In this document: positions 13,461 to 58,422 of the stretch, piece after piece
How the letters are laid out: each line of letters starts with the position of its first letter
Numbering within the stretch: the stretch's first letter is position 1
Origin: Eunapius fragilis
Lineage: Eukaryota > Porifera > Demospongiae > Spongillida > Spongillidae
Assembly (NCBI GenBank): GCA_963681505.1
Contig: OY811990.1
Location: forward strand, 1,609,350 to 1,673,349
Direction: 5' to 3'
DNA length: 64,000 bases
Notes under the pieces: generated by a model
Seen by the model: only the letters and a program-made list of their open reading frames with translations
The model's database searches: none
What the model was told of the DNA's origin: nothing
Program-made: the position numbers and the translations under genes

Positions 13461-16400
13461 TTATAGTTCAGTCTCTTCAGCGCAAACTTTTTCAGTGATT
13501 GCATCAGCTGCCAGTGGAGAGTCAATGTAGGGATTTGTGGAAGCAATCCTGGTGAGAGACACACCACCTCTGCCGCCTCCCCCTCCTGTTGCACCCATGC
13601 CAAATGGACTAAGACTGGTGGCAGCAGATGGAGAGGCTGCACCCTTCTCACACACACCCACAGCAGTTGGCTGGTGACCGTCTTTAGCTGATGCGGCGGG
13701 TTTGGTAAAAACGCCCTTATTTGGGTCATCATCTTCCTCTATACCATCAGGGATGTACAAATACTGGTCCGTGTCCAGTTCCAGTTCGATGTATGGCTGG
13801 TCCCTGTCTGATGCAGATAGCTGGAGCATCAGTTCAAACTTGGACTTGAGATGGGTAAAGGATGGTCGACCATGTGGGTCTTCACTCCAACACTCCAACA
13901 TGATGAAATAGCTACATGTGCACAGAGAGACTTATTGAATGGGAGATAGACTTGGAGGCAGATTAACATGGTACCAATGCTACATAATATTACCACCAGT
14001 AATTTAATCAGGGCATTGAACACTCCGCAGAACTTTAATAATTATTCTCCACACGACTTAAATATTTAATACATGTACATGTGTAGATCCAAGTCTGCAA
14101 CAATTACAGTTTGCATATTGTAATAATGCTGCTACAAGATTGTATTGATTATTTTAAAAATGCATTCACACTCCCGTTAGGAGCATCACAAATACACAAT
14201 GTGCTATCTTTTTCTCAGGGGGGGGGGGGGGGGGTGTATGGGAAAAGAGGTTATAATATTTGGGGCAAAGTTCAGGGAGTTTGTCTTCTACTTAGTTTTT
14301 TATCCTCCACAATAACTGGATACTACATGTATTTACGTAAGTCAGGCAGCAAATTATTTAAGTGTGGCCATCCCCAGTATTCAGCTGATGTTACGGTATC
14401 CATCTACTGTATATGCTGGCAAGAACAATTCAAAGAGAAGACTCACACTTCATTAGAACAGTTTTCTGGTTTCTCCATTCGGTAGCCAATCTTCAACCTC
14501 TTCAGGAGGTCATCATTAGATATTGATGGATAGGGAAACCCCCCTTTAACAAAAGAATATTACATAGTATCTGGTCACACAGTACTCTGATACATACCAA
14601 AGGTGCTTATCTCCCACAGAGTGATTCCAAACGACCACACATCAGAGTATGTGGTGTAGATCCTCCTTTCCAGGGACTCTATGGCCATCCATCTCCATGG
14701 TAACTTCCTCTTCCCCTTCACTTCATACACCTCTTCAACCTCTCGGGAAAGACCAAAGTCTGTGATCTTCAACGCTTTGTTTTCTCCAATCAGAACGTTG
14801 CGACAGGCAAGGTCACGATGGACAATATTGAGACTTGCCAAGTGTTGCTATAATAAAAGAGGAAAAATACATTGAAGCTGAAAATATAGTCATTGTGGTC
14901 CATCGCAAACATAAAAACTCTGAATGAGGTTATGTCAGTCTGCCTCAGCCTCACCCTCATGAGGCAGAATGCCAGGGCAATTTTGGCCAGATGTATCTCA
15001 CCAAACACTTGCTGTGACTTTTAGTTATTTGTAGTGCTTATGTTTTAAATTAATGTATTCTGTACTATTTTTCTATACATTAATATTTATATTCACAGAA
15101 GATGTGAGGGTCATTGTAACTGAAATAATCCCACCATTCCCTCCATAAGGCCCCACCATTCCCTCCATAAGGCCCCACCATTCCCTCCATAAGGCCCCAC
15201 CGTTCCCTCCATAAGGCCCCACCATTCTCTCCATAAGGCCCCACCATTCTCTCCATAAGGCCCCACCATTCCCTCCATAAGGCCCCACCATTCGCTCCAT
15301 AAGGCCCCACCATTCCCTCCATAAGGCCCCACCATTCCCTCCATAAGGCCCCACCATTCCCTCTCCATACTTCCCTCCCATATAGACTCACCATCCCATC
15401 AGCTATCTGGTAGGCAAAGGCAATGAGGTCATTTTCCTCCAATGGTCCAAGGCCATCTTCAGGTTCAGATTCTGACTTAGTTGTATCCAAATGAGAGTAC
15501 TCACTTCCTGCCTCCTACAGTGGGAGGGGGGGGGGGGGGGGGTGGGAGGAGGGATACAACCAAGTCAAACAAAGCAAATTGTAACAGAACATATGTGTAC
15601 ACAGATTCATCCCCAGGCCGTTACGGCAATGTGTATGTGCTAGGCCAGTGACGGTTTTGTTATGTTAAGTACCATGTGTTCTAACACTAGATGCCACATC
15701 CCATTACATGTACGTTTAAATGGTTCCTTTTTTACATGTGCTCCAGTCCACTACACATGGTTCAAGCTGCACAAGTTAACCCTTTCTCGGTTTAACATGA
15801 CGCTGGCACCCTGCTCACACAACCGACCCACCAGACAAGGTAGATAAAGGGCTTCCTCCACTTCACCTTGGGCATGAAGTGTGTTGTTTTGGAAATCACG
15901 CAAAAGAGAATAATCTACCACCACTGTACATGTAGATGAAACCTTCCTGCGCTCAAGCAAGTTGTATAACATTACATGTACCTAGGTGTGCTAACCCCCT
16001 ATCAATGTGTACCAGGCCATCTGTTTCCACCTCCATCCCAACTTTAATGTCAAAGAAAATGGCTCGGGATGAGGCTAACGTGAATGGTACATTCACATAT
16101 ATGTAGTAGCACACACACACACACACACGCACACACACACACACACACATACACACACACACACAAACACACATACACAAAATAAACACACAAATCCTCA
16201 CAAGGTATGGAGCTGCAGGTTGATCAGTTCCACCATTCATAACGCTGCCATTGGTGGTAACAGTCACCCTCGATAGCTCCGACACCTTCTGGGCTCCCTG
16301 TTAGAACAAAAAGGGACAGGATTCATAACTAACACCAATAAATATGATTACACCAATGTGCAAATACATGTCCATTACAGTAGCATTATATAAACCAACT

Positions 16401-19400
16401 CATGCAGTACGCTGCACCAGCCACAAGTAGGATAACTATTTCATTACATCGTATCGGGCCCTTGGAAGAGAAAATATGAAGTAATATAAATTCATAAACC
16501 ATATGTACACACGGGTATGCCACACTGTTTATCATCAGAACTGGTACTGATACTGATCTTGCACATATGTACATATACTTTAACTTGTATACATACTAAA
16601 AAGCAGTACCCCCTAGACTGACCTCATGGGTGGCTGCAGACGTAAAGCTCTCCACACCCCTCCTCAGTACAGGTACATGTACTGACTATTGACCATGTAT
16701 ACATTAAAGTGATGCAGTTTCCCCTAGACTGACCTTCTTCTGGTGTGTCCTCAGGTACGACAGCAGACTGCCATAGGTGACCAGCTCACACATCAGGCAC
16801 ACTGGCTCTGACCTGGTCACACATCCTATCATGTTGACAATGTGGGCGTTACCAGAGGTGATCTTCTTCATCATCTCTATCTCATTCATGAAGTCCTGCT
16901 TCTCCTTGCCCTGGGCTGTGGCTGAATGAAGTGGTGATGTCATCATTAGATGTCACAATGAATATCAACAAACAGGTGATCAGGGTCAAATGGATTGAAC
17001 ACAAAAGAACAGCACACACATGCTAACAACATGTATCTTTACCTTTAAGTACTTTGATGGCAACAGGGAAACAAACTGACTTCTTAACTGATGAGGGTAG
17101 CAATGGATTCTTAGTCAGGCATGGTCCACTGACTGTTCCCTTGTAGACCTCTCCAAAGGCCCCCTCCCCCAGCTTCTGGTCTACAAACACCACCACATCA
17201 CTGGGATCAACCTCCCAGTCATCATAGTAGGTGACCTTCTCACACAGAAGGTCCTGGAGAGTCCTTCCTCCAGTGGCGCCCAAGTTAGTCTGAATGGCAA
17301 ATTGTGAATTATATACATGAGGAATTGAAAACGGACATAAGTGACTCTGACATTAGGGACTATCTACATATATACGAACCTCCGTTCATCACCCCTCCCC
17401 CTGGAACATACCTGCTCTCCCAGGATGACCTTGTTCTTTGATCTGATGACACACATCACAGCCAACACTATGAAAATGGCCAACAGCAGTACAGCAACAG
17501 ATGGAACTACTGCGGCAATCAGGATGGTTAGTACACTTCCTGCAAAGAATAACAAAGTGGTGGGAGAAGGGTGGACAGATGAGAAGGCTTAAACTATTCC
17601 TACCTCTCCTTCTTCCATCACAATTTTCCCCGTGACACATTATCCCTCACCTCCTTCATACATCTCCTACGTCACACCCTATCCCTCCCCTCCGATCTGT
17701 CACATCTCTTCCTTCCCTATCAATTCGTTTTTCTGATTATTCAAGGTATATTTACATGTATCAAAATATTCACAAAAACCTATTGCATGTAGCTAAACAG
17801 TGTTTTAGCAATGTTCGGAATTAGTATGGGCCACTGGCTGAAAAACCTAGCTTTTAAAGTATCATACTTTTAGCTTACGGTACAAGTACATGTACATAAA
17901 TCGATTTTGATAAATTGCATCTCTTGAAAGTATCGAAAAATCCTATTAAAGAGGTTAAGAGGAGGTGATAAGTTCCTGAACACTAAGATGTCTTCCCTCC
18001 ACCTCAATCAAATCTATTCCCTCCCACCTCCACACTCTCCCATCTCAGGGGAACGGATCAGTAATCTAAAACATTGGAAAACTAATACAAATATAGAAAT
18101 TAAAATACCATAACCGAGACAAACTCCAAATAACACCCACCATCATTGCCACTTGTCTGTTCAGCTGCAGTTTCCTTGGGGGTTGGTAACACTGATGTCA
18201 TCAACGAGGACATAACAACAACAGGGGAAGCAGGGGGTGGTAGCGATGATGTCATTGTCACCATAGGAGGCAGCAAGGTAGGTGGTAGTTGAATGGTAAA
18301 ATTTGTGGGAGGACTCCAATCGCTGGTTATTCCGTAGCTACTGACTGTTCGAACCTACACATTGAAATATTAATAGCACAAATCAATTGAAGGTTTGGAA
18401 GTGCTTAATTACGCGTATATATAGACAAGGGAAGGACTGGGGATGAGATGGCTTGCTAGTATGGGGAAGGGAAGGCTGGGGATGAGAAGGCTTGCTAGTA
18501 TGGGAAGGGAAGGACTGGGGATGAGAAGGCTTGCTTGTATGGGGAATGGATGACTGGAGAAAGAAGGCTTGCTTGTATGGGGAAGGGAAGGACTGGGGAA
18601 GAGAAAGCTTGCTTGTATGGGGAAGGGAAGGACTGGGGAAGAGAAGGCTTGCTTGTATGGGGAAGGGAAGGAATGGGGATAAGAAGGCTTGCTTGTGGAA
18701 GCATCAGGATGGTAGATATGATTTAATGACTATAACTGGGGACCATTGGTATTGAAACTGAGGTTACATGTAGATCGGATGCCTTCTCACCTGAATGTAG
18801 ACGGTTAAAAGAGGTGCGGTTAGGGAATCAAGGTCCAGTGTGAAGTTGGTTGAAAGCATTGTCCTTCCCAAGCTTGGCTGCAAGGACGTTAAAATAGCAC
18901 AGTACTCAATTAACCGCACAACACTCTTCATTAACCGCACAACACTCTTAATTAACTGCACAGCACTCTTAATTAACCGCACAACACTCTTAATTAACCG
19001 CACAACATTCTTAATTAACCGCACAACACTCTTAATTAACCACACAACACTCTTAATTAACCGCACAACACTCTTAATTAATTGCACAGGACTCTTTAAT
19101 TAACCGCTCAACATTGCTCATTCCTGCATGCACATCTAGTGTTGTACATATGTAATTGAAAGGTAGTGATATAACAGTACTCAATGTGGAATTATAAATA
19201 GAACTTCCATATCTCAGTGGGGGTGGTGAGTGGGGTGGGGGGGGGGGCATAGGGAGAAGGGGGGGGCATAGGGAGGAGGGGGGGGGCATAAGGAGGTGGG
19301 GGGCATACATGTAGGGAGAAGGGAGGGGGGGCAGGAAGGGGAGGGAAGGTTTCGTCACGGGTATGTTCTGAGCAGGGGACCATAAAGTGACAGGTGGGAG

Positions 19401-22400
19401 GGGCACGTGGGAGGGGCATACCTGTGCCTGCCTCTTTCCAACGTTACTGGACTGCACCTAAAGTGAAACCAAAGTACAGAAAGAGACCCATGACATCAGC
19501 CTTCCCATACAACAGTGCAAAGCAACCTACTCTGTAGGCCAATGTACATGTACACACACATGTACACACACATGTACTCAAACACATGTACACACACATG
19601 TACACACAAATGTACACACATGCACTCACACACATGTACACAAATGTACATACATGTATACACACATGTACACACACATGTACACACACATGTACACACA
19701 TGCACACACACACATGTACATTACATGTACACACACACACATGTACACACACATGTACACACATGCACACACATATGTACACACACATGCACTCACACAC
19801 AAAACATAGACTAGCATACCGTAAATCTCACCACCCTTCCTGGGGTTGACCCACCATCAGGCTGATTGGGAGTTAAGGCCTGGGCACCAGCCCAAACATC
19901 ATAGAGCGTTACAGTTCCGCTGGGAGGTGTCCAGTCAAGCCACACCTCCAGGAGGAGGGTCAACACACGTCCACTGGTGGACCACTGAGAAGTGGGCGTG
20001 GTCAAATTGACGTTGGACACAGGCTTGAGGGGCAGGGGGAGGGCACTAAGGTTGCAGTATTGCACGAGAGATGGTAAGGAATTCGAGAAAGACGACGGTC
20101 GGAATGCAAGCTGAACCTGAAGGTGGTGGTGGTGGTGGGGGGAGGAGGAAGGTGGGAGGGGCTGGTGATGTCACTTCTACGGCCAACTCACGTTGAAGTA
20201 ATATCTCCCATTGGTCACATCAGGAGCGTAGTCTTTTACAAAGGAGTAGGTTTTCTGTTGTGGGGGTGGAGGGGAGGGGAGGTGGAGAGGTGTGGGGGAG
20301 AGAGAGAACAGCTGAACCATGCAAGCTGACATATACGACGTACACATGCACATGAACATGTACAATATGGATCAAGGAGGTGTGTTGACTGGCATACCAA
20401 AATGGGCACACTGATCTGAGGGGAGTAGGTGGGTCCCCTGCGATCGGTACCCAGCAGACCCACTGTGGCAGTAGACAGTGCGGCCATGACATAGGGAGGG
20501 AAGTCCAGGGTCCATGTTATGTTGTATCTGAACATAGAGGATGTCGCGTTCCACGTGGAGGTACACTGGAGACCTATGTCCGCGGACTTGGCAAGGTCTG
20601 GGGAAGAGGCACGCACACGTAACATTTGTACGTGCATATTACAACGACGGCACGTGACATCACACTCACCGCTACAGGGGATGGAAGGGATGATCACCTG
20701 TGGAGACACTGATCCCACCTTTGCTGGCTTGACAACAACCTGTTAGTTAAGCAGGTCAACCATACACCCTTAAGGCAACCACACAATGTTGCATGCAACT
20801 CAAAGAATCCAACTACATGTATATTTTCAGTAAAACATTAGTTTACTGATATTTTGCTAAAATTCATAGTGTTGCACAATATGTTGCCTAGTGTATGGTC
20901 AGATTTACATGTAGTAACACAGGAAAAAAATTTCAACTCAAATATAATTTTAGTTGTTGTGTATGGTCAGGAGGCATATTGCAAACTCCTACATGTATGA
21001 TTGACATACACACCAGCCATGCTCTTCTTCACATTAACACTATTCATCTCTGTACATGCAACTCCAAACGTTTTCCCTACACACACAAGACCCATGAGTG
21101 AGGAGGTGATGTTTTACAGAGATGCATGTAACAACAGGGACAGAGCTAAGTGATAAGTTTTGGATATGGAAATGACCATTTTAGCTTCTCTATAATTCCC
21201 TGATCCCTGATCCCTCCCATTCCTCCCATTCCTCCCCTTCCCTGTGATCACCTGCACTGTGTTTCCACTGCACCCACACTTCAGCCCATCACTGCTTGAG
21301 GAGGAGGAGGCCATGAGAGCAAAGCCAGTAGCATCAGCCTGAGATGAAATCAATATAATTGACGGTTAACTCCCCCCCCCCCCCCCCCCCCCCAACGCAT
21401 GCACACACAACATTAACCCCACAGTTTCACTAGTAATCCCTTACATGTATATGTAGACTGGTTTTGAAAACCATGTGTTTTGGCAAGATTATGGCCCCTT
21501 TCCATGCTTAGTTGCGCGATTTGTAGACATTGCCTGACCACAACACACAGTTGGCCTTTTAGTTTAAATATCAATATCATTGACGGTTAAGCCCCCCCCC
21601 CCCACCCACGCATACGCACACAACATTAAACTCACGCACATATGCACATACGTGTATATGTACATATTCATACACACAGAAGCATAAGCAACACATACAC
21701 CCGAACAAAGATATCAAAAAGGATCACCTCTTGTTTCATTTGGCGAGTGTGGTCAAGTACATGTACATGTAATAATTAGAAAGTTAAACACTACAGCCAT
21801 ACACACTCCCACACGCTCCCATATATACACAATTCCATACTCTTAGACCCACTCCCATCACAATCCCATATACACTCCCCTTATACTGATGCATACATGA
21901 CACACACTTTGTACACTAGGCACGCAAAAATGGTAGTATAAAGGTATTAAGACCTTACCTGCGATACAGAGTAAGACTTGGGATTGAGAGAACAAGCACC
22001 AAAACCAAATGACGGGGATGTGAAAGATACATCATAGCTCTGAATGTATTCAGAATCTACAGAAGGTAAATACAGGTCCATAACTAAAGCATGGTAGTAG
22101 ACGGATGATGTGACATCAGTAAGTATCAGGTGACAATGGAGACAGATCAGGTGACATCAGGTGACTTACTGCTGGGTCTCTGCCAGGAGAGTGCCAGCAC
22201 CAAGTACCCAAAATATCCCATGCGGGTGTCCGGTGCCGTGGTAACGCTGAATGTCGACAACTGTGAGGGATATACTGCAGGAAAGAGGAGGAGGGGGAGG
22301 AGGTGGAGGAGGAGGAGGAGGAGAAGGTGGTGGAGGAGTAGGGGGGATGCAGATAATGATGATGTCATACTTATAGATGATACTTATAGATGAGGTTATC

Positions 22401-23488
22401 ACATACTTACAAGTGGATGATGTCTTTATACATGTACATGTGTTATGAAAACACAATTCACCAGGCTATGAGGCTAGAGGCAGCTTCTTGTACTTGAAAC
22501 TATTAGTTGCTGCCATCTCAAATTGTTCTAATTATCCACTTACTGTAAGTGTTCTAATTATTGTAAATGTTCTAATTATCTACTTACAGCCAGATATCCA
22601 CATGGTCAAGGGACCAGAGAACACTGGAGCTCCATACAGGTAGCTGACCACAGCAAAGGACACGTTGACAGTAAGGCCTGAAAAGGTACTGAGGTTCAGC
22701 TGGTTCTCTGTACTGACCTGGGGAGGAGGGAAACGTTTGGATTGGTTATGATACAAGAGCATGCATACATAGACACTATCTATACAAAACATGCACATGT
22801 AGTACTTTACATAAGACCACACACTTATTAGCTTGCAAGCTACCACGAGAACAAATAGCGTACCAGCCAGTAGTAGGTAGGCGGAGCTTCTCCACCCACT
22901 GGTTGCACTCTCACAACCAAGCTTGACACCAGTGGAGGTGTGGGTGGTGTTATACTGGGGGCAGCCGATGTGATGTTAAGAAAGAAAATGTTGGGATCAA
23001 TAGAAGACGTAGTGAGCTGAGGGGGTCCCAGAGGAGTGTACTGACTGGGAAGGTCTGGGGACATAGTGTTATGGTCACTTATATAATGTATGTACATGTA
23101 TGTATGTATGTGTGTGTGTGTATGTATGTATGTATGTATGTATGTATGTATGTATGTATGTATGTATGCATGTATGTATGTATGTATGTATGTATGTATG
23201 CATGCATGTATGCATGCATGCATGCATGCATGTATGTATGTATGTATGTATGTATGTATGTATGTATGTATGTATGTATGTATGTATGTATGTATGTATG
23301 TATGTATGTATGTATGTATGTATGTATGTATGTATGTATGTATGTATGTATGTATGTATGTATGTATGTATGTATGTATGTATGTATGTATGTATGTATG
23401 TATGTATGTATGTATGTATGTATGTATGTATGTATGTATGTATGTATGTATGTATGTATGTATGTATGTATGTATGTATGTATGTATG

Positions 23489-23519
<31 letters not shown>

Positions 23520-23818
23520 CAGTTGGATGCCATCTCTCACCACTAAATGCAATGGTCCTGTTGCAGGCAGTGTCACAAACATTCGCGTTCTAAAATATAT
23601 TTATAAGTTTGGAAGAAGAGTGAATAAAGTATGTGGGTGTGGCTTACACATGTCCTAGTACGGCACTGTTGGGGCTGTGAGGTGTAGTATCCATTACAGG
23701 TATAGGTGTTTGGACTGAACCTGTTATTGGGACACACGGAGGTGCAGTTTGAATACTGTGGGCAAAGGAATTCAAAGACAATACAGTTACAGACAACATA
23801 CACACACAGACACATACC

Positions 23819-23896
<78 letters not shown>

Positions 23897-26800
23897 TGGT
23901 CGCACGTTGTAGGTGTGTATGTATATATGGCAGCTTTGTTAATATACCAGCCAGGTCAGAGCACAGGCACAGAACTCCCAGGTTCATCATCAACTCCACC
24001 AACCAGTAGTTACCCACATCACCACTGGGAAGGAGATTTGCAGGAAGTGTAACTTTGACAGACGCACCAAGGGACCCCTTTGCTTATTTGCACACATATG
24101 TTGGGTTAATGCTGACTGGGGGAGACCAATCAGCCAAGTCCTGCACTCTTGGGCCCCCCGGGGGAGGATTACAACACTCCAAACCATTCAGCTGTTGTAG
24201 CACAGTCCAACACTGTCTGTCTCCAATGTTTTGTACCTGTAACTGTCATTTGCTTGCTCACTACCATACCCCACGGGACACCACTATCTTGACAGTATCA
24301 AGGCAGCAACCTCTGCTTGCCTCTAGGGTACAGTGGTCTGCATCCCATTCCGCCCCACAATGGTTCAGGCAACCTAGGGCATGGTGGTCTGCACCCTACA
24401 GGTGTACCTAAGGCTAAGCATACAGCCCTCGGCACACACCATTCAACCTAAGATGGCTAGCCTAGGGTATGGCGGTTATCACTTGCCTCCCTTAGCTATC
24501 ATGCAGTCAACAGGGTACACGTACAGGGCTAGCGCACCTACTAAGTAAGGAATTAACAGGCATACATATTACAAATCCACTCCGGGAAAAAAAAAAAAAA
24601 AAAAAAACATGATGCAATTGCGCGCGAAAAAGGGCCATAAACCCATCAAATCGTGCAGTCTTCAAATAGTTGTATCTCCTTGATTGTGCAATATATAGTA
24701 GAGTCACATTTTGCATATTTACAAAGCGGTCCTGTATCTATAGACGTCCAAAGATGGTTTAATTTGCCATGCATCGTTCCGAAGATATCCACGTTCAAGT
24801 AAAAGGTTTGTTTTGTACTTGAAGTCCGTGAAATCTTGACCCTTACTTGAATGTATCACAAATTAAACCATCTTTGGACCTCTATAGACACAGGACCACT
24901 TTCTTCACATTACTTCATACATGTAGCCACATTATGCACAGCATAACAACATTGTGATCCCCAAAAACATGTACTACTCACACAAGCTGAGGAACAGTTG
25001 GTCCAGCCCCCATAGTTCACACAGGCATCCCTGCATTCCCAGACCTGGGGATGGAGGGAGGGAGAGGAGAGGGAAGGGGAGGGAGGGAAGGAGAGGTTGA
25101 GGGAGAAGAAGAGTTGGGAGTGAGAAGGGGAGAAGAGGGGACCAGAGTGAAAATCATATAAAGCATGCAAACTCACAAACTTACCGAATTGTACACCTGT
25201 CCTGCTATGGTGGTGCACAGGTAAGAGTCAGGCATAATCAACCACACAGGGGATCCAGGGTAGCGCCTCTGCAAACACAGAATATGTAGTCAACTGTACT
25301 ATGCATGTAGTTAATATGGTGTAACACATGGTGATGGTGTTAACATGTGACATGTCGATTTAATTTTAATGCCACACCCACAAACCTCAAGTTCAATGCC
25401 CTAGCATGCATTCAATACAATCACTGCTTAATAATTTGGAATTACAATGTATTTACTACTGATCAAATGTGGTGCAAATGTGTATGTAAATATGGTATAT
25501 GTGACATCAACACAATAGTAAATATAAAACTTTAGCAGAAATGCCACATCTACAATATTTCATACACATTTGCACCACATTTGATCAGTAGTAAATACAT
25601 TGTAATTCCAAATTATTATTTGATAAATAGTAAATACTATGTAAATCGAAATTATTATGCAGTGAATGTACATGTAATTACCTAATCACCTAATCAAAAT
25701 CCACACACACACACAAATGTACACATGTGTACACATACACACATACATGTACATGTAGAGGCAGTTCTTACCTGAAGGAATGTGTTTTGAGCAGACATTG
25801 AAACATACTATAGTTTAAAAGAACCAGCATATGATTGACATACACTACTACTGTACATGTTTTTTTAAAACTAAACTGTACAGCCAAACTCATGTGGGGA
25901 GTGTGTGTGTGTGTGTGTGAACACAACACACAAGTAGGTGTGAATATTTCCCCCAATATGACCAGTAAACAACCTCCTATCTGTCACTTCATGTATAATT
26001 CATCCTCTGTTAGTCCATCCCTAGGGCCTACCTTATATTCTACCTTATTGCGTTCCAACTTTGAAGTTACTATACACTTTGCTAATTTACACCTAAACCA
26101 ACACCCTAGCCTTATACTGACTACACCCCTAGCCCAATACTGACCACACCCCTAGCCCAATACTGACCACACCCCTAGCCTTATACTGACCACACCCCTA
26201 GCCCTATACTTACCACACCCCTAGCCTTATACTGACCACACCCCTAGCCTTATACTGACCACACCCCTAGCCTTATACTGACCACACCCCTGGACTTGTA
26301 CCTAACCACACCCCTGGACTTGTACCTAACCACACCCCTGGACTTGTACCTAACCACACCCCTGGACTTGTACCTAACCACACCCCTGGACTTGTACCTG
26401 ACCACACCCCTGGACTTGTACCTAACCACACCCCTGGACTTGTAACCTAACCACACCCCTGGACTTGTACCTAACCACACCCCTGGACTTGTACCTAACC
26501 ACGCCCCTGGACTTGTACCTAACCACACCCCTGGACTTGTACCTAGCCACACCCCTGGACTTGTACCTAACCACACCCCTGGACTTGTAACCTAACCACA
26601 CCCCTGGACTTGTACCTAACCACACCACTGGACTTGTACCTAACCACACCCCTGGACTTGTACCTAACCACACCCCTGGACTTGTACCTAACCACACCCC
26701 TGGACTTGTACCTAACCACACCCCTGGACTTGTACCTAACCACACCCCTGGACTTGTACCTAACCACACCCCTGGACTTGTACCTAACCACACCCCTGGA

Positions 26801-29800
26801 CTTGTACCTAACCACACCCCTGGACTTGTACCTAACCACACCCCTGGACTTGTACCTAACCACACCCCTGGACTTGTACCTAACCACACCCCTGGACTTG
26901 TACCTAACCACACCCCTGGACTTGTACCTGACCACACCCCTGGACTTGTACCTAACCACACCCCTGGACTTGTACCTAACCACACCCCTGGACTTGTACC
27001 TGACCACACCCCTGGACTTGTACCTAACCACACCCCTGGACTTGTACCTAACCACACCCCTGGACTTGTACCTAGCCACACCCCTGGACTTGTACCTAAC
27101 CACACCCCTGGACTTGTACCTAACCACACCCCTGGACTTGTACCTAACCACACCCCTGGACTTGTACCTAGCCACACCCCTGGACTTGTACCTGACCACA
27201 CCCCTGGACTTGTACCTAACCACACCTCTGGACTTGTACCTGACCACACCCCTGGACTTGTACCTAACCACACCCCTGGACTTGTACCTGACCACACCCC
27301 TGGACTTGTACCTAACCACACCCCTGGACTTGTACCTAACCACACCCCTGGACTTGTACCTAACCACACCCCTGGACTTGTACCTAACCACACCCCTGGA
27401 CTTGTACCTAACCACACCCCTGGACTTGTACCTAACCACACCCCTGGACTTGTACCTAACCACACCCCTGGACTTGTACCTAGCCACACCCCTGGACTTG
27501 TACCTAACCACACCCCTGGACTTGTACCTAACCACACCCCTGGACTTGTACCTAACCACACCCCTGGACTTGTACCTAACCACACCCCTGGACTTGTACC
27601 TAACCACATCCCTGGACTTGTACCTAACCACACCTCTGGACTTGTACCTGACCACACCCCTGGACTTGTACCTGACCACACCCCTGGACTTGTACCTGAC
27701 CACACCCCTGGACTTGTACCTAACCACACCCCTGGACTTGTACCTAACCACACCCCTGGACTTGTACCTGACCACACCCCTGGACTTGTACCTAGCCACA
27801 CCCCTGGACTTGTACCTAACCACACCCCTGGACTTGTACCTAACCACACCCCTGGACTTGTACCTAACCACACCCCTGGACTTGTACCTAACCACGCCCC
27901 TGGACTTGTACCTAACCACACCCCTGGACTTGTACCTAACCACACCCCTGGACTTGTACCTAACCACACCCCTGGACTTGTACCTGACCACACCCCTGGA
28001 CTTGTACCTAACCACGCCCCTGGACTTGTACCTAACCACACCCCTGGACTTGTACCTAACCACGCCCCTGGACTTGTACCTAACCACACCCCTGGACTTG
28101 TACCTAACCACACCCCTGGACTTGTACCTAACCACACCCCTGGACTTGTACCTAACCACACCCCTGGACTTGTACCTAACCACACCCCTGGACTTGTACC
28201 TAACCACACCCCTGGACTTGTACCTAACCACACCCCTGGACTTGTACCTAACCACACCCCTGGACTTGTACCTAACCACGCCCCTGGACTTGTACCTAAC
28301 CACACCCCTGGACTTGTACCTAACCACACCCCTGGACTTGTACCTAACCACACCCCTGGACTTGTACCTAACCACACCCCTGGACTTGTACCTAACCACG
28401 CCCCTGGACTTGTACCTAACCACACCCCTGGACTTGTACCTAACCACACCCCTGGACGTATACCTAACCACACCACTGGACTTACCTTGCTGATGCACCA
28501 GGAATGGCATTTGGCTTTCCTCACAGCATTTCTCTCTTCAATGACATCATTGGATAAGTTGAACTGTCGGAAGGGTGTGGGACTGGGCACCACCACCATG
28601 TTTGTGGACATGGGTTGTATACTTTCAGCAGTGGTCAATGATGGTGCAGGTGATGGTGTTACTGGAGCACTTGACTGCACTGGTGGTGCTACTGGAGCAC
28701 TTGACTGCACTGGTGGTGCTACTGGAGCACTTGACTGCACTGGTGGTGCTACCGGAGCACTTGACTGCACTGATGGTGCTACTGGAGCACTTGACTGCAC
28801 TGGTGGTGCTACTGGAGCACTTGACTGCACTGGTGGTGCTACTGGAGCACTTGACTGCACTGGTGGTGCTACTGGAGCACTTGACTGCACTGGTGGTGCT
28901 ACCGGAGCACTTGACTGCACTGGTGGTGCTACTGGAGCACTTGACTGCACTGGTGGTGCTACTGGAGCACTTGACTGGACTGGTAGTGCTACTGGAGCAC
29001 TTGACTGGACTGGTGGTGCTACTGGAACACTTGACTGCACTTGTGGTGCTACTGGAGTGCTTGACTGCACTTGTGGTGCTACTGGAGTGCTTGACTGCAC
29101 TGCTGGTGCTACTGGAGAACTTGATTCCACTGTTGGTGCTTCAAGAACACTCGACTGAACAAATAGCGTTAGGGAAGCATTTTGGAGTGTAAGTTCAGCT
29201 GAAGGAACAATGAGGTACATGCATCACTTAGGAGGTCAGTCATGGAAATTTTGGTCAGCTGTTAAAAACTGGTCCCAAACTATAATTTTGGTCTGGGAGT
29301 ACTAACACTACTGTGAAATTTAGGTCTGAGTAAAACATAAGCCAAAGAATAATTTTCAGTAATTGCATTCCAGGGGGATTTTGGTCCTGGACCAAATTAA
29401 ACGCAGGCCAATTTCCAGCGACAGGTTCTAGAATGAATCCTGTGCATGCAGACTACTGAACACACAATTAGTGACATGATATAGAAGTAAATGATAAATT
29501 CCCTGCTACACCCTTCTGCTGGTGTGCATTCACAGGAAGGTGGCGCATATGCACATGCATAAATACTCCAGGATACTCCAGGATACTCCAGGATACTCCT
29601 GGAGTACTACAATTATTAACACAATGAAATAATAACCAAATCTCCACCCCCATCAGAAATAAATAGAGGTGCAGTACTTAACAGTACATACATGTGACTT
29701 ACACACTCTGACCATATTACTGTACAGTGAGTGAACTTACCAGGTGATAGAGACGGTTGAATCATGCTACTATGTGCATCGAATCCTGATGCTGTCATGG

Positions 29801-32800
29801 CAACGTATGTTGGTGATGTGATGGCTGATGTTTCCATGGCAACATAGGCAGGCGATGTGATGGCATCAAGTCCTGATGTTTCCACAGCAACAGACGTTGG
29901 CGATATGTGATCTGTTATTGCCATGGCAACATGTAATGATGATGATATTGATGGGAGATCAAGTTCTGTTGATTCTGTGTCATTTCCCAATGATGGTGTA
30001 GCCTCAGGTGTTGGAAATGCTTGCAGGGTAAACAAGTTTGAGGGTAAACAAGTTTGAGGGTAAACAAGTTTTTGAAGCAATACAAGAGGAGGAAAATGTA
30101 CGGGGTGTGGCTACCATTTGAGGGGCATGGCTAAACACTCACGGGGCCATTTACATTGTAATTTTGATCAAAAGGTTAACACAGAGCACTGGTATTATAA
30201 CACTTAGGCACTCGAAGGGCTGATGTACATATGGAGACATTGTGTGTACACACTCACACACTCCATTACATACACTCACTACCTACCATAACAGGACAGA
30301 ATAGGCAATACTCTTGAAGGGACACTCGACCCAAGAGGCTTTGGTTCTGCTGAGACCTGCAGATATCAAATAAAATAGAAGGCAGCCATTGTTAGCATCA
30401 TCACCTATTCCCAGGGGACCTGACCAGTTACACATGCCAGCACATACCTCCAGCGTAACGTCTGCACACCCACACGTCAGTGCGGCAGCATCAGTGCCGC
30501 CAGCTGCAATCGTGATGTTGACAGCACCCTGGAGGTGGTGGGCATTAATTAAGGTTGTAACGTTTTGTATCACGCCCGGAGCCCACCTGTGGTGCAACGC
30601 AGACGGTACGGTTCAGACAGCTACCGCTGACTACCACCGAATAGCCTTGCAAATAGGTCATGTCTGTAAAATGGGTGGAGGGTGGAGGGGGGGGAATATT
30701 AACATGCAGTAAATGGTATCCCTCCATATATATACTGTATGAGAAACTAAATACATGTACATGTGTTATGTTTTCAATTTTTTTCTTAAGTGATGCCTAA
30801 ATTGTAGGTCCTGTATAACTTCATTCTTACACATTGGAAATTGGTCTGCCAAGGTCCAACACAACACAGCCCCACTCCCTAGCTCCACACACTCACCAGC
30901 AGGTCTGGCCCATGATAAGGTGAACACAACAAAGCCATCAAATCCCACACGTGTGTCGGGGATATACTGGACCTCAAAGGAGGTCAGCTGAGAGGGAAAG
31001 CCTTGCGCCATTGCTGAAATAGGGAGGAGGGGAGTAGGAGAGAGGGGAGGGAAGGAGGGAGAGAAGGGGAGGGGAGGAGTAAAAGGAGGAGGATGAGGGG
31101 AAAGATAAGGGGAGGAGGAGGGAGGTGAGGGCAGGAGAAGAAAAGAGGAGAGGGGAGGAGGAGAAGGAGGAGGGGGAAAGATACAGGGAGGAGGAGGGAG
31201 GGGATGGAGGGGCAGGATAATAATACATGATTGAAGACCTAAATTAATCGCAAAAAAATCACCTAACAAATATCAGATGACCACTTCCTGTTACACAATC
31301 CATAAAACTGCTGACCACACATACCTGGAGGAACTTGGACAACAAGCGGACTGGAGTATGCAGGAGCAGTACTGTACAAGAAGCTGACCAGAGCAAAGGA
31401 GATGGAGATGTTCTGACACGAGAAGGGAGACAGGTCCAGTGGTTCCTCTGTGCTGGTCTGGGGAAGAGGGAGGTGACCATAAATGACCACTGGTGAGGTG
31501 ACAATGGGAGGTAAAGTTACAATGGGTGACCATGGGAGGTAAGATGTCAATGGGTGACCATGGGAGGTAAGGTGACAGTGGGTGACCATGGAAGGTAAGG
31601 TGACAATGGGTGACCATTGGAGGTAAAGTGACAATGGGTGACCATGCGAGGTAAGGTGGCAATGGGTGACAATGGGAGGTAAAGTGACAATGGGTGACAA
31701 TGGGAGGTAAAGTGACAATGGGTGACCATGGGAGGTGAGGTGACAATGGGTGACCATGGGAGGGTGATAAACACTTATGATGCAAATGTAAATACTTCTA
31801 ATGTGCTTGACACCAAACAGAGGGGCTAGTGTTATCAAACAACACCAGGTAGATGCCAATTGTACCACTTCTCCCCCACACATCCCCACTCCCCACCTAT
31901 TCTCCTTCCTCCCAATCCCCCCTCCCCTTGCACCAGGATTGTTGGGGGGGGGGGGGGGGGGGCACCAAGTATTAAGAGTATTATGTAGGTGTAGGTCACT
32001 ATAAGGGTGTGGGTGTGGGAGGGGGATATGGTGTGTGTAGGAGGTGTGGAGGGGGATGTGGTACGGAGGGGCATATGGTGTGGGAGGAGGGGGATATGGT
32101 GTGGGAGGGGGTATGGTGTGGGAGGAGGGGGATATGGTGTGGGAGGGGGTATGGTGTGGGGGGTATGGTGTGGGAGGGGGATATGGTGTGGAGGGGGATA
32201 TGGTATGGAGGGGATATGGTGTAGGAGGAGGATATGGTGTAGGAGGGGGATATGGTGTGGAGGGGGATATGGTGTGGGAGGGGATATGGTGTGGGAGGAG
32301 GATATGGTGTAGGAGGGGGATATGGTGTGGAGGGGGATATGGTATGGAGGGGATATGGTGTAGGAGGAGGATATGGTATGGAGGGGATATGGTGTAGGAG
32401 GAGGATATGGTGTGGAGGGGGATATGGTGTGGAGGAGGATATGGTGTAGGAGGGGATATGGTGTGGAGGGGGATATGGTGTGGAGGGGGTATAGTGTGGG
32501 AGGGGGATATGGTGTGGGAGGGGGATATGGTATGGAGGGGGATATGGTGGAGGAGGGGGGTATGGTGCTGAAGCTTTGATAGCTATACGTTCATAATGCA
32601 AGGAAATACACATATAGTGCAACTATGAATATATAATTACCCCGAGGGGCACGTGCCCCCTTCCCTTCCCCCTTGATTCACCACTGAGTATTACAGTGAG
32701 GCGGGGATGGTGGGGGTGGAGGGGGATACAGACAGGCATGGTTGTAGGTAAACTCGGATATATCAACGTAAATTGTCGTTTTACGTACAAATATCCGATA

Positions 32801-32835
32801 ATATTGAGTTTACCCTACAACCACACCTGTCTGTA

Positions 32836-32866
<31 letters not shown>

Positions 32867-33865
32867 AGGCTAAGAGAAGTCAGATTTTTGCATACCCATA
32901 CTCGAAAAACATTATTCTATTTAAAACCTTGTCATTTGACCATGTTTATTCTTATTAGTGCCTACTGTTTTTTAGCACTTCCAAAATAAAACGTTTCTAT
33001 CAAAACTTATGGTTGCTAGAAGAACACAGTTGTGAAGTACAACCCAGAAAAAAATAAGAATGTCCTGGAATGTTGCAATCACACAGAGTAGTTTACTATA
33101 CACAAGGGTATAACTACATAAATATTGCTATTGTTAAACATTATAAACCAACCACCTGAAAAATTGCACGCCTAGCAAGTACGAAGAAATTGGGGGTGGG
33201 GGGGGGGGGGGGGGGGGGGGGGGGGGTAGTTTGACATCATATGACATAGAAGCCACAACTGCAAGCAAACATGATAACTGCCCCTGATATCACCACTTAG
33301 TACTAAGTGGTATGCTAGGCTACAATCACTAACCAGTGAACAGTTTTTGCAGCCAGTTTCGCAACACGTTATGTACACCAATGTCAATGTGAGTATGTAC
33401 ATTACAGACATGTAAAATGCAAAATGCTCAAAGCAAAACCACCCCTCCTCACTCCCTCCTCTCCTCCTCCCTCTCCTCCCTCCTCTCCCTGTCCCTCCCT
33501 CCCTCCCTCCTTCACATCCTACCAGCCAGTAGAGAACAGGTGGGTCCCTCGTGGGCTGAACCCTCACTATCAGGTTGGCAATCAGACCCTGCTGCCCAGC
33601 AGTAGCTCTAGGGACTGCTGGAGCGATGTTGAGCCTATAACTGTTGGTCTGGTTGGACACACTGACGAGCTGGGGTGGACCCTGCGGCAGGTACTGATTA
33701 GGAAGGTCTGGGGACGAGGACAGTAAGTAATATGAACAGGTCCGTAGAGGGGACAAAGTGGTCTACATACTTGAGGAACCAAAGGTTTTGGCATTTGTGC
33801 ATCCATTTGAACAGGATAATGAGCTCTATAAGGAAGAACTCGGTCATTAAATGCTGGAACAATTG

Positions 33866-33904
<39 letters not shown>

Positions 33905-35082
33905 CACCATCCACACAAGTACAAAGCAATACATCCTAATGTAACTTACACAAGTTCTTGTACGACATTGTGTTGATGGTGGGTAGTAATTAGAACATGT
34001 ACCACGTGGACACGTTGAAGTGCAATTTGAATTCTGCAAAACATATAGAAGTCTAACTAAAAACTCCGTCTGAAACCCCACTCCTCCGAAACCCCACCCC
34101 TCCTAAGTCCAACCCTCCCTAAGTTTTTCAGCCATATAGTCTCCTTTCATACTCACACAAACTGTTGGACATGTTCTTGTTGTCAGGGTTGTGTTGGTAC
34201 CAAAATCCTTACAAGCACTGCTGCATTCCCATACCTGAAAGGAGAGGGGAGGAGGAGAGGAGAGGGGAGGAGAAAGAATGGTCATACTTGTATATGCACC
34301 ATTAAAACCACACACCGTCACCCACACACATGCACACACAACACACTTAAATTTACATCATTATAAACTGCACTTCGTGTAGTTGAGATGAAACAGAGGT
34401 ATGAATCTGGAATTATTAACCAGATGGGAGACCCTGGATAGTTTCTCTGCAAAAGAAATAAACAGACAATATTCAACTCATGGTGTTAAAACACACTAAT
34501 GCCTTTGGTTTAGCTACGGGAGGGCTTATGGGGACAGAGTGGCTTAGAATTACATTAACTTTTGGCTATTACACAGCAAGAGAATTGTTTTAAAAGGGGG
34601 AAGGGGGTTCAGAGCCAATGTATTGACATACTCTCGTCCAGGGATATTAAAGTATCTACACGTATGCAGCGGCTTACCTGAACGAAAGTGCTCTTCATAG
34701 TGGAAGTAAAGGCCTGAAATAAAAGTAAGATTTAGATGATATGATTATCCTTTCAAAAAAGATAACTTTAAACGCTTTGGGACGGCCTTACATCACTTAG
34801 GCAGCTGGTACGGCACTTGGCTCTCGTGACGAGGTCCCTCTCGGTGTTCCTGGGCGGAGCGGGAAGAGGTGTGGGGCAATAGAGCAGCTGGGAGGGTGAG
34901 GAACTTGGCCCGCCGGCAGTCGGGGTTGGCGCCAGCAACGTGACCGTATTGGCATCGAGGGACCACGACGACGAGTACGTTCCCGGAGGTATGGTGGGGG
35001 ATGGTTGCGGCGAAGTGACGTCGCTGCGACTTCCCCCGTACAGCAGCAGGTGCACGAGGCCGAGCAGGTACACTGTCCTCAT
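13461..35082 (-). CDS. Receptor tyrosine kinase with an internally duplicated Cys-rich/FN3-like ectodomain (39 exons, 1928 aa)
   Basis: Exons in transcript order: 35082-34792, 34713-34678, 34446-34357, 34234-34157, 34033-33950, 33825-33771, 33707-33523, 31457-31325, 31013-30897, 30663-30587, 30528-30448, 30356-30287, 30019-29741, 29198-28486, 25807-25772, 25268-25185, 25044-24982, 23755-23648, 23589-23541, 23054-22864, 22717-22588, 22274-22170, 22056-21959, 21338-21252, 20739-20670, 20597-20398, 20254-20192, 20116-19820, 19457-19422, 18877-18791, 18354-18141, 17539-17412, 17289-17043, 16921-16734, 16297-16202, 15514-15392, 14847-14598, 14543-14447, 13911-13461. All use GT-AG and sum to 5787 nt without a stop. 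It is a type I membrane receptor: signal peptide, a module present twice (residues 1-433 and about 526-1104), membrane-proximal segments, one helix (about 1403-1445), a cytoplasmic kinase and a Tyr-containing tail. Kinase motifs are complete, so it should be active; the ligand is unknown. The kinase resembles metazoan RTKs generally, while the ectodomain matches no RTK family I know. The alternative of two adjacent genes is disfavoured because no helix or kinase follows the first module and the frame runs through. Confidence 0.85.
15129..15372. repeat. 22-bp minisatellite (RTK intron 36)
   Basis: About eleven units of CCACCATTCCCTCCATAAGG plus CC, beginning some 20 bases beyond the exon 36 donor on the transcript strand. 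Nearly identical units imply recent expansion. Confidence 0.95.
16110..16192. repeat. CA-rich microsatellite beside RTK exon 35
   Basis: Interrupted (CA)n directly after the exon 35 splice donor on the transcript strand. Confidence 0.85.
17412..17539 (-). other. RTK exon 32: transmembrane helix
   Basis: A 43-residue exon with a hydrophobic run of about 30 residues ([20 protein letters not shown] onward) and a basic stop-transfer RSKNK. It is the only such helix after the signal peptide, which fixes a single-pass type I topology. Confidence 0.9.
18430..18700. repeat. 35-40-bp minisatellite (RTK intron 30)
   Basis: About seven units with core GGGAAGGGAAGGACTGGGGA and GAAGGCTTGCTTGTATGG. The overlapping open frames are repeat artefacts. 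Confidence 0.9.
18905..19105. repeat. 21-bp minisatellite (RTK intron 29)
   Basis: About nine units of TTAATTAACCGCACAACACTC, each containing the palindrome TTAATTAA, just upstream of exon 30 on the transcript strand. Confidence 0.9.
19530..19800. repeat. TGTACACACA-type microsatellite
   Basis: Imperfect tandem TGTACACACA/TGCACACACA units over about 270 bases in the RTK intron between exons 28 and 29. Confidence 0.9.
23097..23518. repeat. (ATGT)n tetranucleotide microsatellite, about 420 bases
   Basis: Nearly pure ATGT repeat with a few ATGC variants near 23170-23232, in the RTK intron just beyond exon 19. Open frames on both strands are repeat artefacts. Confidence 0.97.
23822..23894. repeat. 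(CA)n microsatellite in an RTK intron
   Basis: Uninterrupted CA repeat of about 36 units, upstream of exon 18 on the transcript strand. Confidence 0.95.
24723..24902. mobile_element. Small fold-back/MITE in an RTK intron
   Basis: About 40-base inverted repeats (AAAGYGGTCCTGT, TCTATAGA, GTCCAAAGATGGTTTAATTTG) at the two ends of a 180-base unit, with only a few mismatches. It lies between RTK exons 17 and 18. A long A run (about 24585-24607) sits nearby. Confidence 0.75.
25428..25619. mobile_element. MITE with about 57-bp terminal inverted repeats (copy 1)
   Basis: The left arm begins AATAATTTGGAATTACAATG and runs to ATGTGTATG; the right arm is its near-perfect reverse complement. The core contains GTGACATCAACACAATAG and AGTAAATATAAA. 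A related copy lies at 50017-50207. A TA or TTA target is suggested by the AT-rich ends. It sits in RTK intron 15. Confidence 0.8.
26093..28485. repeat. 24-bp minisatellite array, about 92 main units plus a diverged tail (RTK intron 14)
   Basis: Unit on the transcript strand: GGTACAAGTCCAGG then GGTGTGGTTA. Units from about 26286 to 28485 are almost identical, differing mainly at A/G sites. From 26093 to 26280 a diverged version (CTAGCCTTATACTGACCACA) keeps the same period. The first unit is the splice donor of exon 14 (AAG|GTAAGTCCAGTGGTGTGG). Two extra bases (near 26443 and 26588) shift the phase. The long open frames on both strands (up to 932 codons) result from the 24-base period. Confidence 0.97.
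28486..29198 (-). other. RTK exon 14: Pro/Ser minisatellite stalk plus first Cys motif of copy B
   Basis: The 713-nt exon begins [15 protein letters not shown], then carries about 16 copies of a 10-residue repeat ([10 protein letters not shown]). It ends in [17 protein letters not shown], the counterpart of [11 protein letters not shown] in exon 1, with the same phase 0 end. It is the copy B version of exon 1 with the signal peptide replaced by, or decayed into, a low-complexity stalk. Upstream in-frame codons include a Met at 29220, so use as a separate start cannot be wholly excluded. Confidence 0.75.
28660..29145. repeat. Coding 30-bp minisatellite in RTK exon 14
   Basis: About 16 tandem 30-base units (core GGAGCACTTGACTGCACTGG on the plus strand), nearly identical in the centre and diverging towards both edges. 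The unit is a multiple of three, so copy-number change keeps the reading frame. Confidence 0.95.
29741..30019 (-). other. RTK exon 13: Ser/Thr-rich linker with internal repeats
   Basis: 93-residue exon, phase 1-1, joining copy A to exon 14. It has no Cys and repeats a short unit around [16 protein letters not shown] ([28 protein letters not shown]). It is likely an extended, O-glycosylated spacer. Its acceptor is TGCAAG, weaker than the others, so alternative skipping is possible; the phase 1-1 structure would keep the frame. Confidence 0.7.
31480..31765. repeat. 28-bp minisatellite (RTK intron 7, before exon 8)
   Basis: About ten units of a 28-base repeat (core GGTGACCATGGGAGGTAA with GTGACAATG), starting some 25 bases upstream of the exon 8 splice acceptor on the transcript strand. 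Confidence 0.9.
32000..32570. repeat. Degenerate minisatellite, GGAGGGGGATATGGTGTG type (RTK intron 7)
   Basis: More than 25 imperfect tandem units of about 17-22 bases with core GGATATGGTGTGG. Open frames over it in several phases are repeat artefacts. Confidence 0.9.
32721..32866. repeat. Hairpin element ending in a 30-base C run (RTK intron 7)
   Basis: An inverted repeat of about 32 bases per arm (GGATACAGACAGG with GTTGTAGG and GTAAACTC, and its reverse complement) spans 32721-32840. The right arm runs straight into an uninterrupted C tract at 32837-32866, and the left arm is preceded by G-rich sequence. It looks like a small fold-back element with an expanded terminal C/G run. Confidence 0.75.
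33198..33226. repeat. Poly-G tract (29 G) in RTK intron 7
   Basis: Uninterrupted G run (C run on the transcript strand) in the 2-kb intron after exon 7. Confidence 0.95.
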
Positions 35083-38549: not shown

Positions 38550-39052
38550 GAAACAAGTAACTAAAAACATTCTCTATCAGAAAGTTGGTGGTACAGTTCA
38601 TACCTCACACTAAGGGAAAATTAACACCTCGCACTAAGGGAAAATAAGGGCAATTCATAGGGAGTTAAGCTAACTGTCAGTGTTCATAGCGGTATCTAGA
38701 CACCGCTATGAACACTGACAGTTAGCTTAGATACCGCTATGAACACTGACAGTTAGCTTAACTCCCTATGAATTTCCCTTATTTGCCATTAGTGCGAGGT
38801 GTTAATTTTCCCTTAGTGCGGGGTATGGGCTGTATATGGAGGCAATAGTGGTGTAAAAAAGCCAGGAAACAAGGTGGAAACTGAAAATGATAGTCCTATA
38901 TTTAGCAGGGCATATGTTGTGTGTATCTATATAAATATAGGGCTATTATATCTTCCCTTCTGATAAGACCTTGTTTCCTTGCTTTTTACACCACTATTGC
39001 CTTCAAAACCTATATACCACCAACTTTCTCACAGAGAATGTTTTTTCCGTAA
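38550..39052. mobile_element. Nested fold-back element
   Basis: The inner palindrome at 38600-38827 has about 95-base near-perfect arms (CACTAAGGGAAAATTAACAC to TTCATAGCGGTATCTA). A second inverted pair (38846-38870 with 38966-39002, GGTGTAAAAAAGCCAGGAAA type) and outer arms (38553-38592 with 39008-39050, CCACCAACTTTCT and GAGAATGTTTTT) lie around it. The outer sequences recur at 59605-59690, 61580-61690 and 62160-62275, so this belongs to a family. Confidence 0.75.
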
Positions 39053-40616: not shown

Positions 40617-40935
40617 AAAAACCTAGCTCCCACTACAGGCATATGTTATGCATGCTTAAATGGCAACACCTTGCTCCCACTACTGGCATAGGTTATGCAT
40701 GCTCAAATGGCAACACCTAGCTCCCACTACAGGCATAAGTTATGCATGCTCAAATGGCAACAGCTAGCTCACACTGCAGGCATAGGTTATGCATGCTCAA
40801 ATGGCAACACCTAGCTCACACTGCAGGCATAGGTTATGCATGCTCAAATGGCAACACCTAGCCCCCTTTACAGGCATAGGTTATGCATGCTCAAATGGCA
40901 ACACCTAGCTTCCTCCCTCTACTGCTATAGGTTAT
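40617..40935. repeat. 49-bp minisatellite, about 6.5 units
   Basis: Tandem units with core CTCCCACTACAGGCATAGGT and TATGCATGCTCAAATGGCAA, lying 3' of the TRIM-NHL gene. Confidence 0.9.
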
Positions 40936-57396: not shown

Positions 57397-58422
57397 TTAG
57401 TCACTTGGAAGTAAAAAATGGGTATCCATGCTGCAGGTACCAGTATCCGTTTTGTGCACTGTAGTGGCATTCTGACTAGAGCCATAATTTTCCACTACCC
57501 TTTTAATTCCATTCAAGGGACGAGTCCACCTTTTTTTAATAGTTGAAATTAAGACTATTAACATGTGCACCAGGAGAGCTGTACCAGCTGCAAAACTCCA
57601 CGCAGGAATGAAAAATGCGCTGGCATATATTAGATTCAGTTCTAACTTGTCCTCTGACATGTAAAGACGGTTTGTAAATGGAATCATAAAAAAAACGCAG
57701 AAGACAATGGGATAGACGATAAGGGGGAGAAGATGCTTCAGAGCTTGCCTGTGTTGGACACTGCCCATGGCCAATTCATCATGTCTGCAGTACACTCTGT
57801 AGATTAGAACTGCAAGCATTACCACCACTGCTATTGCCACAACGACTAAAATGATAAAGGCCACGCCATAAAAAAGAACAAACTGTTCAATTTCACCATT
57901 TATGACTATATCCAATGGACAGTTGTTTTTCCAGTTTTGAATCCAGCACCACGCCCCAGCTTGCCCATACGAGTTGGTAGTAAAAGGAATCACAGCCATT
58001 AAAAGTGGAATACACACAGAAAATGAGACATATGCCACTTCGAGCCTTTTTAGGTTCTTATGAAATACAGCAAAACAAAAAAGATGGAAAGTGAGGCATA
58101 CAACAAATAAAACTTTCATCATGATGAGCAATTGACCAAAGAAACCCGTCGCTTGGCATATCGGATGAGGAGCGCCGAATGCCAAAAAGAATCCAACAGT
58201 TGACATACCGAACAGAAGTGAACTTAATCCTTGGTAGAGGGCTAAACGGTACGATAGCATCTTGTAAAGTCTGAGAAGGAGTAAGAGGGTGATTGCTAGT
58301 GAGCAAACCACAACAGAGGCTCCTCCAGTAGCTATTCCGAGATAAGCAAGCTGCTTTACAATACCCTCGGACAAGTGCGTGGAACAGTTACTCATTTTGC
58401 TAGTCTTGTGCCCAGCCAGCAA
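57397..58422 (-). CDS. Seven-helix receptor of the cAMP-receptor/GPR157-like type
   Basis: Single-exon protein of 341 aa; a second in-frame Met ten codons on (MSNCSTH) may be the real start, since the first adds a basic lead. Seven hydrophobic segments lie roughly at residues 25-52, 60-82, 92-118, 127-147, 182-212, 233-253 and 268-292. A helix 3 Cys (HPICQATGFFGQL) can pair with the loop-2 Cys in QAGAWCWIQNW. AGAWCWI is a hallmark of the Dictyostelium cAMP-receptor/GPR157 group (family knowledge). N-glycosylation is possible at NCS. The C-terminal tail is short and Ser/Thr-rich. The receptor should sit in the plasma or ciliary membrane and couple to G proteins; the ligand is unknown. It is not close to the class A receptor at 1639 and shares no promoter with a neighbour. 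Confidence 0.82.
   Translation of the reverse strand: MLAGHKTSKMSNCSTHLSEGIVKQLAYLGIATGGASVVVCSLAITLLLLLRLYKMLSYRLALYQGLSSLLFGMSTVGFFLAFGAPHPICQATGFFGQLLIMMKVLFVVCLTFHLFCFAVFHKNLKRLEVAYVSFSVCIPLLMAVIPFTTNSYGQAGAWCWIQNWKNNCPLDIVINGEIEQFVLFYGVAFIILVVVAIAVVVMLAVLIYRVYCRHDELAMGSVQHRQALKHLLPLIVYPIVFCVFFMIPFTNRLYMSEDKLELNLIYASAFFIPAWSFAAGTALLVHMLIVLISTIKKRWTRPLNGIKRVVENYGSSQNATTVHKTDTGTCSMDTHFLLPSD

Follow-up and report, generated by a model that had tools for sequence, protein, structure and literature searches.

Arrays of FN3 domains placed before a transmembrane helix and a kinase are carried by several receptor tyrosine kinases (RTKs), among them ROS1/Sevenless, the insulin receptor and Tie2. 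Sponges have, to our knowledge, many RTKs whose ligands are largely unknown, and the main sponge kinome papers are reportedly Srivastava 2010 and Suga 2012. No title or abstract opening among the entries listed from the open-licence PMC literature was about the receptor analysed here. Its gene, g1, lies in a window of 64,000 nucleotides (C20:1609350-1673349) of the 219-Mb, 24-contig genome of Eunapius fragilis. We consider it probable that g1 encodes one functional RTK, in which two homologous modules, each built of a cysteine-rich domain and a pair of FN3-like domains, and a Ser/Thr/Pro-rich stalk precede an FN3-like trunk, a transmembrane helix and an active-looking kinase, and that it arose by a single doubling, exchanged its trunk and kinase with a sister gene (g2) by conversion, and serves ligand-driven signalling.

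The likeness of g1 to ROS1/Sevenless, the insulin receptor and Tie2 is one of ectodomain. These receptors appear among the Foldseek matches to a low-confidence model; Pfam found no N-terminal domain common to them and g1 in the stretches of g1 that were scanned (residues 69-433 and 727-1928). The kinase domain of g1 scores 289 bits against PF07714. A FastTree phylogeny of 23 kinases (g3, a relative described below, left out) unites g1, g2 and two Ephydatia muelleri proteins, P0001 and P0002, in one clade (1.000), which adjoins kinases of Halichondria, Geodia, Ephydatia (P0009) and metagenomes (0.969). RET and FGFR (P0106, P0105) are among the kinase matches and in the tree, where their branches are separate from those of the sponges and metagenomes. 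Pfam gave neither a cadherin nor an Ig match in the scanned residues, and membership of the RET or FGFR families was rejected, g1 having neither family's ectodomain over those residues nor its kinase clade among the 23 kinases. Catalytic motifs, DFG included, can be read in exons 33-37, and by motif the kinase looks competent. The hydropathy windows of exon 32 are the only 19-residue windows of g1 above 1.6 and indicate a single transmembrane helix between ectodomain and kinase. As to an N-terminal signal peptide, the start of g1 looks hydrophobic by eye, though no 19-residue window there passes 1.6; in a general hydropathy scan of g2, windows starting at residues 1-6 pass it.

The exon boundaries of g1 were set by hand from three-frame translations and the sequence and then assembled, and they are backed by the intact paralogue g2 and by co-linear E. 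muelleri proteins, that is, on a genomic and predicted-protein basis. The model runs on the minus strand from 35082 to 13461 with 38 GT-AG introns, 1928 codons plus a stop and no internal stop; this rebuilding reproduced the totals of the preliminary description, an open chain of 39 exons and 1928 codons. We read the order of parts as cysteine-rich, FN3, FN3, stalk, cysteine-rich, FN3, FN3, FN3-like trunk, transmembrane helix and kinase (Table 1).

Table 1. Parts of g1 and associated repeats, in positions of the window
Feature	Position	Strand	Basis
g1, complete receptor tyrosine kinase gene, 39 exons, 1928 aa	13461..35082	-	gene model; co-linear with P0001/P0002
Block A1-A12	35082..30287	-	gene model
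Copy A cysteine-rich domain, from the end of A1 through exon A6	33771..34881	-	gene model and A/B alignment
Copy A first FN3-like domain, exons A7-A8	31325..33707	-	gene model; FN3-like in a structure model made of homologue P0001 instead of g1
Copy A second FN3-like domain, exons A9-A12	30287..31013	-	gene model and A/B alignment; not in g2 nor in either E. muelleri protein
Linker exon 13 (L13), Ser/Thr-rich, phase 1-1	29741..30019	-	gene model; not in g2
Block B1-B12	29198..20670	-	gene model
Exon B1, Ser/Pro-rich 10-aa repeat stalk joined to start of copy B cysteine-rich domain	28486..29198	-	gene model, repeat scan
Coding 30-bp minisatellite in B1, 16.2 copies	28654..29140	-	repeat scan
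Intronic 24-bp minisatellite between B1 and B2, 96.7 copies	26166..28483	-	repeat scan
Copy B cysteine-rich domain, exons B2-B6	23541..25807	-	gene model and A/B alignment
Copy B first FN3-like domain, exons B7-B8	22588..23054	-	gene model; FN3-like in a structure model made of homologue P0001
Copy B second FN3-like domain, exons B9-B12	20670..22274	-	gene model, A/B alignment; fn3 sub-threshold at the same place in P0001
Trunk, FN3-like region, exons 26-31	18141..20597	-	fn3 15.1 bits, below cut-off
Transmembrane exon 32	17412..17539	-	hydropathy windows starting 1401-1424
Kinase domain and C-terminal tail, exons 33-39	13461..17289	-	PF07714 E 3.9e-86

It is the protein identity of the two blocks that shows the duplication. 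Copy A (residues 68-433) and copy B (727-1104) are identical in 157 of 387 columns (41%, 278 bits), with a Smith-Waterman score of 723, the best of 500 shuffles reaching 86. Identity per exon pair from exon 2 to exon 12 ranges from 22% (A11/B11) to 68% (A3/B3), and is 22-51% in exons 9-12. The one-to-one pairing of exons 1-12 with 14-25 proposed earlier is borne out, all 12 pairs ending in the same phases (0,0,0,0,0,1,0,1,1,0,0,1), and the motifs then named occur in both copies; of the "several identical lengths" only 36/36 and 70/70 remain, the other ten pairs differing. Shuffled phases match at a mean of 6.3 of 12 positions, and at all 12 in a fraction of 0.0001 of 20000 trials. An unrelated 12-exon offset (exons 26-37) nevertheless matches at 11 of 12, so the phases are supporting evidence only. 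That block was considered as a third module copy and rejected, since it covers trunk, transmembrane helix and kinase; the trunk compared with A or B scores at shuffle level (36 against a mean of 41.3, and 53 against a mean of 45.5). A recent origin of A9-A12 from B9-B12 was likewise set aside, as the exon identities there are those given above and the tree gives no resolution in that part. Exon B1 does not match A1 cleanly: the 30-bp repeat array takes up 487 of its 713 nt, and only its 3' end aligns with A1. By pattern, the stalk repeat has 15 units in g1, five in g2 and five in P0002; the pattern scan of P0001 found none.

The preliminary description saw in the ectodomain a previously undescribed receptor class, and this is partly supported. 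The cysteine-rich part of g1 has no Pfam match in either copy and no match to PDB sequences, and copy A (69-433) has no Pfam match at all, fn3 included; the rest is FN3-like, the kinase groups with sponge and metagenome RTKs, and the E. muelleri relatives already stand in databases. In the g1 trunk fn3 remains below the curated cut-off of 25 bits. For the family, nine pieces of seven related proteins, of which five belong to named sponges and two are jgi sequences, were aligned: six of the nine match fn3 at E<=1 (best 9.9e-6), one matches TIL (0.034) and one ILCR1_N (0.00048), and the alignment profile gives 19 matches to PDB sequences at E<=10, the one below 0.001 being IL-13 receptor alpha-1 (2.4e-5), in the trunk. 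A thrombospondin type 1 identity of the cysteine-rich part, suggested by WEC..C and CRTRTC, was rejected for want of Pfam support; this domain may be a new extracellular domain of sponges.

Structure prediction of each copy, proposed as a check in the preliminary description, gave a partial answer. The AlphaFold models are of the P0001 copies, not of g1, were built on four-row alignments and are poor, with mean pLDDT of 48.3 and 45.2. By blocks of ten residues, pLDDT is about 50-81 in A and 48-76 in B for the first FN3-like domain and about 25-38 for the cysteine-rich part, whose structure was not used. FN3 or cytokine-receptor folds account for nearly all of the 50 Foldseek matches listed for the copy A model (best E 4.5e-3), and the model of B plus trunk finds mostly FN3-type folds, with a best E of 4.4e-8 and low TM-scores. 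Because the models are poor and leave the cysteine-rich domain unresolved, a shared fold of A and B rests on sequence identity and a similar predicted strand order.

P0001 (EMCRGX_G013624) and P0002 (EMCRGX_G002487), both databased as hypothetical proteins of E. muelleri, a freshwater demosponge, have like g1 the order A, Ser/Thr/Pro-rich linker, B, trunk, transmembrane helix and kinase in one chain, with 84% and 74% query identity to g1, respectively, over transmembrane helix and kinase. The claim that a module is doubled inside one RTK gene thus stands, on A/B homology and on both copies occurring in single E. muelleri chains. Unlike g1, both proteins lack the A9-A12 domain in copy A, although as gene predictions they may have missed exons. 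Three protein database searches were made, with about 8000 candidates scored in each: those with the A half and with B plus trunk each returned two proteins, both from E. muelleri and both with A and B in one chain, and that with the kinase returned 223 at E<=1e-60, the closest among those listed being from E. muelleri. A profile search with the module, as the preliminary description had advised, was run over the best 120 of these 223 and found five more members above the inclusion threshold: P0010 (Halichondria panicea LOC135347803), P0009 (E. muelleri EMCRGX_G013614), P0015 and P0007 (jgi sequences) and P0025 (Dysidea avara). All five show a single significant module stretch, where P0001 and P0002 show two; the membership of P0025 is weak, and it has a second, non-significant stretch at 0.099. 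These single-module RTKs share with g1 one module match ahead of a related kinase, at 18-21% ectodomain identity to P0001 B plus trunk. By eye, residues 1-300 of P0015 seem to hold FN3-like sequence before the cysteine-rich domain, which might be part of an additional copy or come from a fused prediction.

Genes that show one module set also occur in E. fragilis. A whole-genome search with module A, run exon by exon with only the best candidates scored, gave 24 matches, 23 of them at three places on C20, namely g1, g2 (about 1.566-1.596 Mb) and g3 (about 5.354-5.371 Mb); the remaining match, on C17, is weak (E 4.47). In g3 (C20:5.35 Mb) a single set of module exons precedes those of trunk and kinase; the g3 model is partial, with exons 10-11 uncertain and one GC-AG donor assumed by eye, and a pattern scan for exon A1 and a signal peptide found nothing. 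The P0009 ectodomain, used as a query, had 13 matches: ten are co-linear at C20:1361396-1366620 (g4), with each module part once, and three are weak (E 0.003 to 0.4). In E. muelleri the reported contigs of P0009 and P0001 have equal length, a placement consistent with a conserved cluster. Matches to PF07714 also lie close together on C9, C13, C14, C15, C18 and C23, as in tandem clusters (at least 154 matches, some being exons of one gene). Module number is one in g3, g4, P0009 and P0010 and two in g1, g2, P0001 and P0002. The suggestion that it varies between species is therefore supported among relatives; at one orthologous locus the only difference seen is the presence or absence of A9-A12, the Ephydatia side being known from gene predictions. 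A tree of 14 module sequences unites the four B copies in a clade (100/98) and leaves the A copies, g3 and the single-module proteins outside it with weak internal support, the A copies forming no supported clade. The B clade indicates that A and B split before g1, g2, P0001 and P0002 did. The doubling, shared with E. muelleri, is old.

A different origin, possible but in our judgement less likely, is the joining of two diverged single-module receptor genes through fusion or unequal crossing-over, with loss of trunk and kinase from the first. The contig of g1 does carry relatives with one module set, and g3 and the single-module RTKs branch off among the A copies of the module tree and not beside an A+B clade; this attachment is weak, however (bootstrap 40-63 at the relevant nodes), and faster evolution of B could explain it. 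Exon order and phases would be the same under in-gene copying and fusion and cannot decide between them. We infer that the doubling happened once in the lineage leading to g1, g2, P0001 and P0002.

The first reading of the locus missed the inverted sister gene g2 and the mosaic homogenisation of the pair. Gene g2 also has two modules and lies tail-to-tail with g1 on the opposite strand, at a distance of about 27 kb. It is an intact gene of 34 exons and 1740 aa; it lacks A9-A12 and L13, and A8 joins B1 directly in phase. Third positions differ between g1 and g2 at 122/266 in A1-A7, 51/1055 from A8 to exon 38 (B1 left out) and 53/144 in exon 39, with dS of 1.49 in A2-A7, 0.28 in A8, 0.05 in B2-B12, 0.04 in exons 26-31, 0.09 in exons 32-38 and 0.70 in exon 39. 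From just upstream of A8 to early exon 39 the aligned DNA is 84-95% alike, intron stretches included; some trunk introns fail to align, and there are large insertions in g2. Upstream of A8 the alignment is confined to parts of A1 (171 bp, 92%) and A5 (54 bp, 98%), so the distal part is not uniformly old. Quartet sites in A1-A7 number 12 for g1-P0002 with g2-P0001, four for g1-g2 and two for the third pairing, and in the first 40 residues three, one and none; the four trunk segments have 48 for g1-g2 against one and two, A8 two against one and none, and the C-terminal tail two against none, although dS in exon 39 is high.

Gene conversion of trunk and kinase between the old paralogues g1 and g2 would be the simplest account of this mosaic. 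Copy B of g1 is 66 or 60% identical to P0001 against 42 or 46% to P0002, and its kinase 86% against 77%; exons 26-31, at 46 and 47%, do not lean to P0001. Since the g1 and g2 trunks are both nearer P0001 than P0002 in B and kinase, conversion from g2 to g1 is the likelier direction. We find it improbable that g1 and g2 are instead recent duplicates whose distal module diverged fast by positive selection, without conversion. The divergence is indeed concentrated in the distal module and the C-terminal tail, but A2-A7 differ far more at synonymous sites than the trunk (about 0.05), the DNA upstream of A8 aligns only in the two short patches, the A1-A7 quartet sites favour an older orthology, and dN/dS in A2-A7 is 0.27, a value of constraint that led us to reject positive selection on the copy A recognition module.

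That copy B and the kinase are a separate transcript or gene starting near exon 14, with copy A in an upstream gene, is very unlikely. An in-frame ATG does stand just upstream of the B1 acceptor (ORF from 29220, minus strand), but the sequence there differs by eye in g2, the A12-L13-B1 junctions of g1 and the A8-B1 junction of g2 have compatible phases, two E. muelleri gene predictions hold A and B together, and copy A would be left without a transmembrane helix or kinase of its own. Still less credible is an assembly artefact or collapsed haplotypes, which the long minisatellites in and beside the block might suggest: A and B are too different for it at their level of identity, g2 and two E. 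muelleri proteins have the same order, and the sole N gap in the joined 122-kb region (200 N at window 63734-63933) is outside g1.

Several other features were seen in the window. An ATGT tetranucleotide of about 108 copies occupies 23086-23518 in the B6-B7 intron of g1, and in g2 the part of the B1-B2 intron matching the minisatellite intron of g1 spans only about 210 bp. Upstream of g1, by eye, 38600-38840 is an inverted-repeat-like stretch, possibly a small mobile element, and 40640-40900 holds several copies of a unit of about 60 bp. Three ORFs lie on the minus strand: an intronless one of 381 aa (1639-2784) matching the rhodopsin-family GPCRs (PF00001, E 2.5e-19), one of 751 aa (41339-43594) with RING, B-box, filamin and NHL repeats, presumably a TRIM2/3-like E3 ligase by its architecture, and one of 341 aa (57397-58422) weakly matching the slime-mould cAMP receptor family (PF05462, E 2.3e-5).

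We propose that in g1 the Ser/Thr/Pro-rich stalk would carry the distal module A above module B, away from the membrane, and that signalling would proceed by ligand-driven dimerisation. Module A may offer a second or different ligand site, giving higher avidity or a second specificity. As g1 and g2 have nearly the same trunk and kinase and different A modules, the two receptors probably couple different cues to an almost identical kinase and pathway. Joining any A exon to the next B exon would keep the frame in 11 of 11 cases, against 6/12, 6/10, 5/9 and 5/8 for shifted junctions; that the splicer could do so follows from the paired phases and is not evidence of use. It is doubtful, though worth stating, that the pair forms a self/non-self or ligand-repertoire system of recognition receptors, in which conversion keeps trunk and kinase alike, distal module and tail differ, and two-module, single-module and chimeric isoforms are made. 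The doubled-module receptor, its single-module relatives on the same contig and its partner, probably gene-converted, lend themselves to a comparison of what the module binds with and without doubling.
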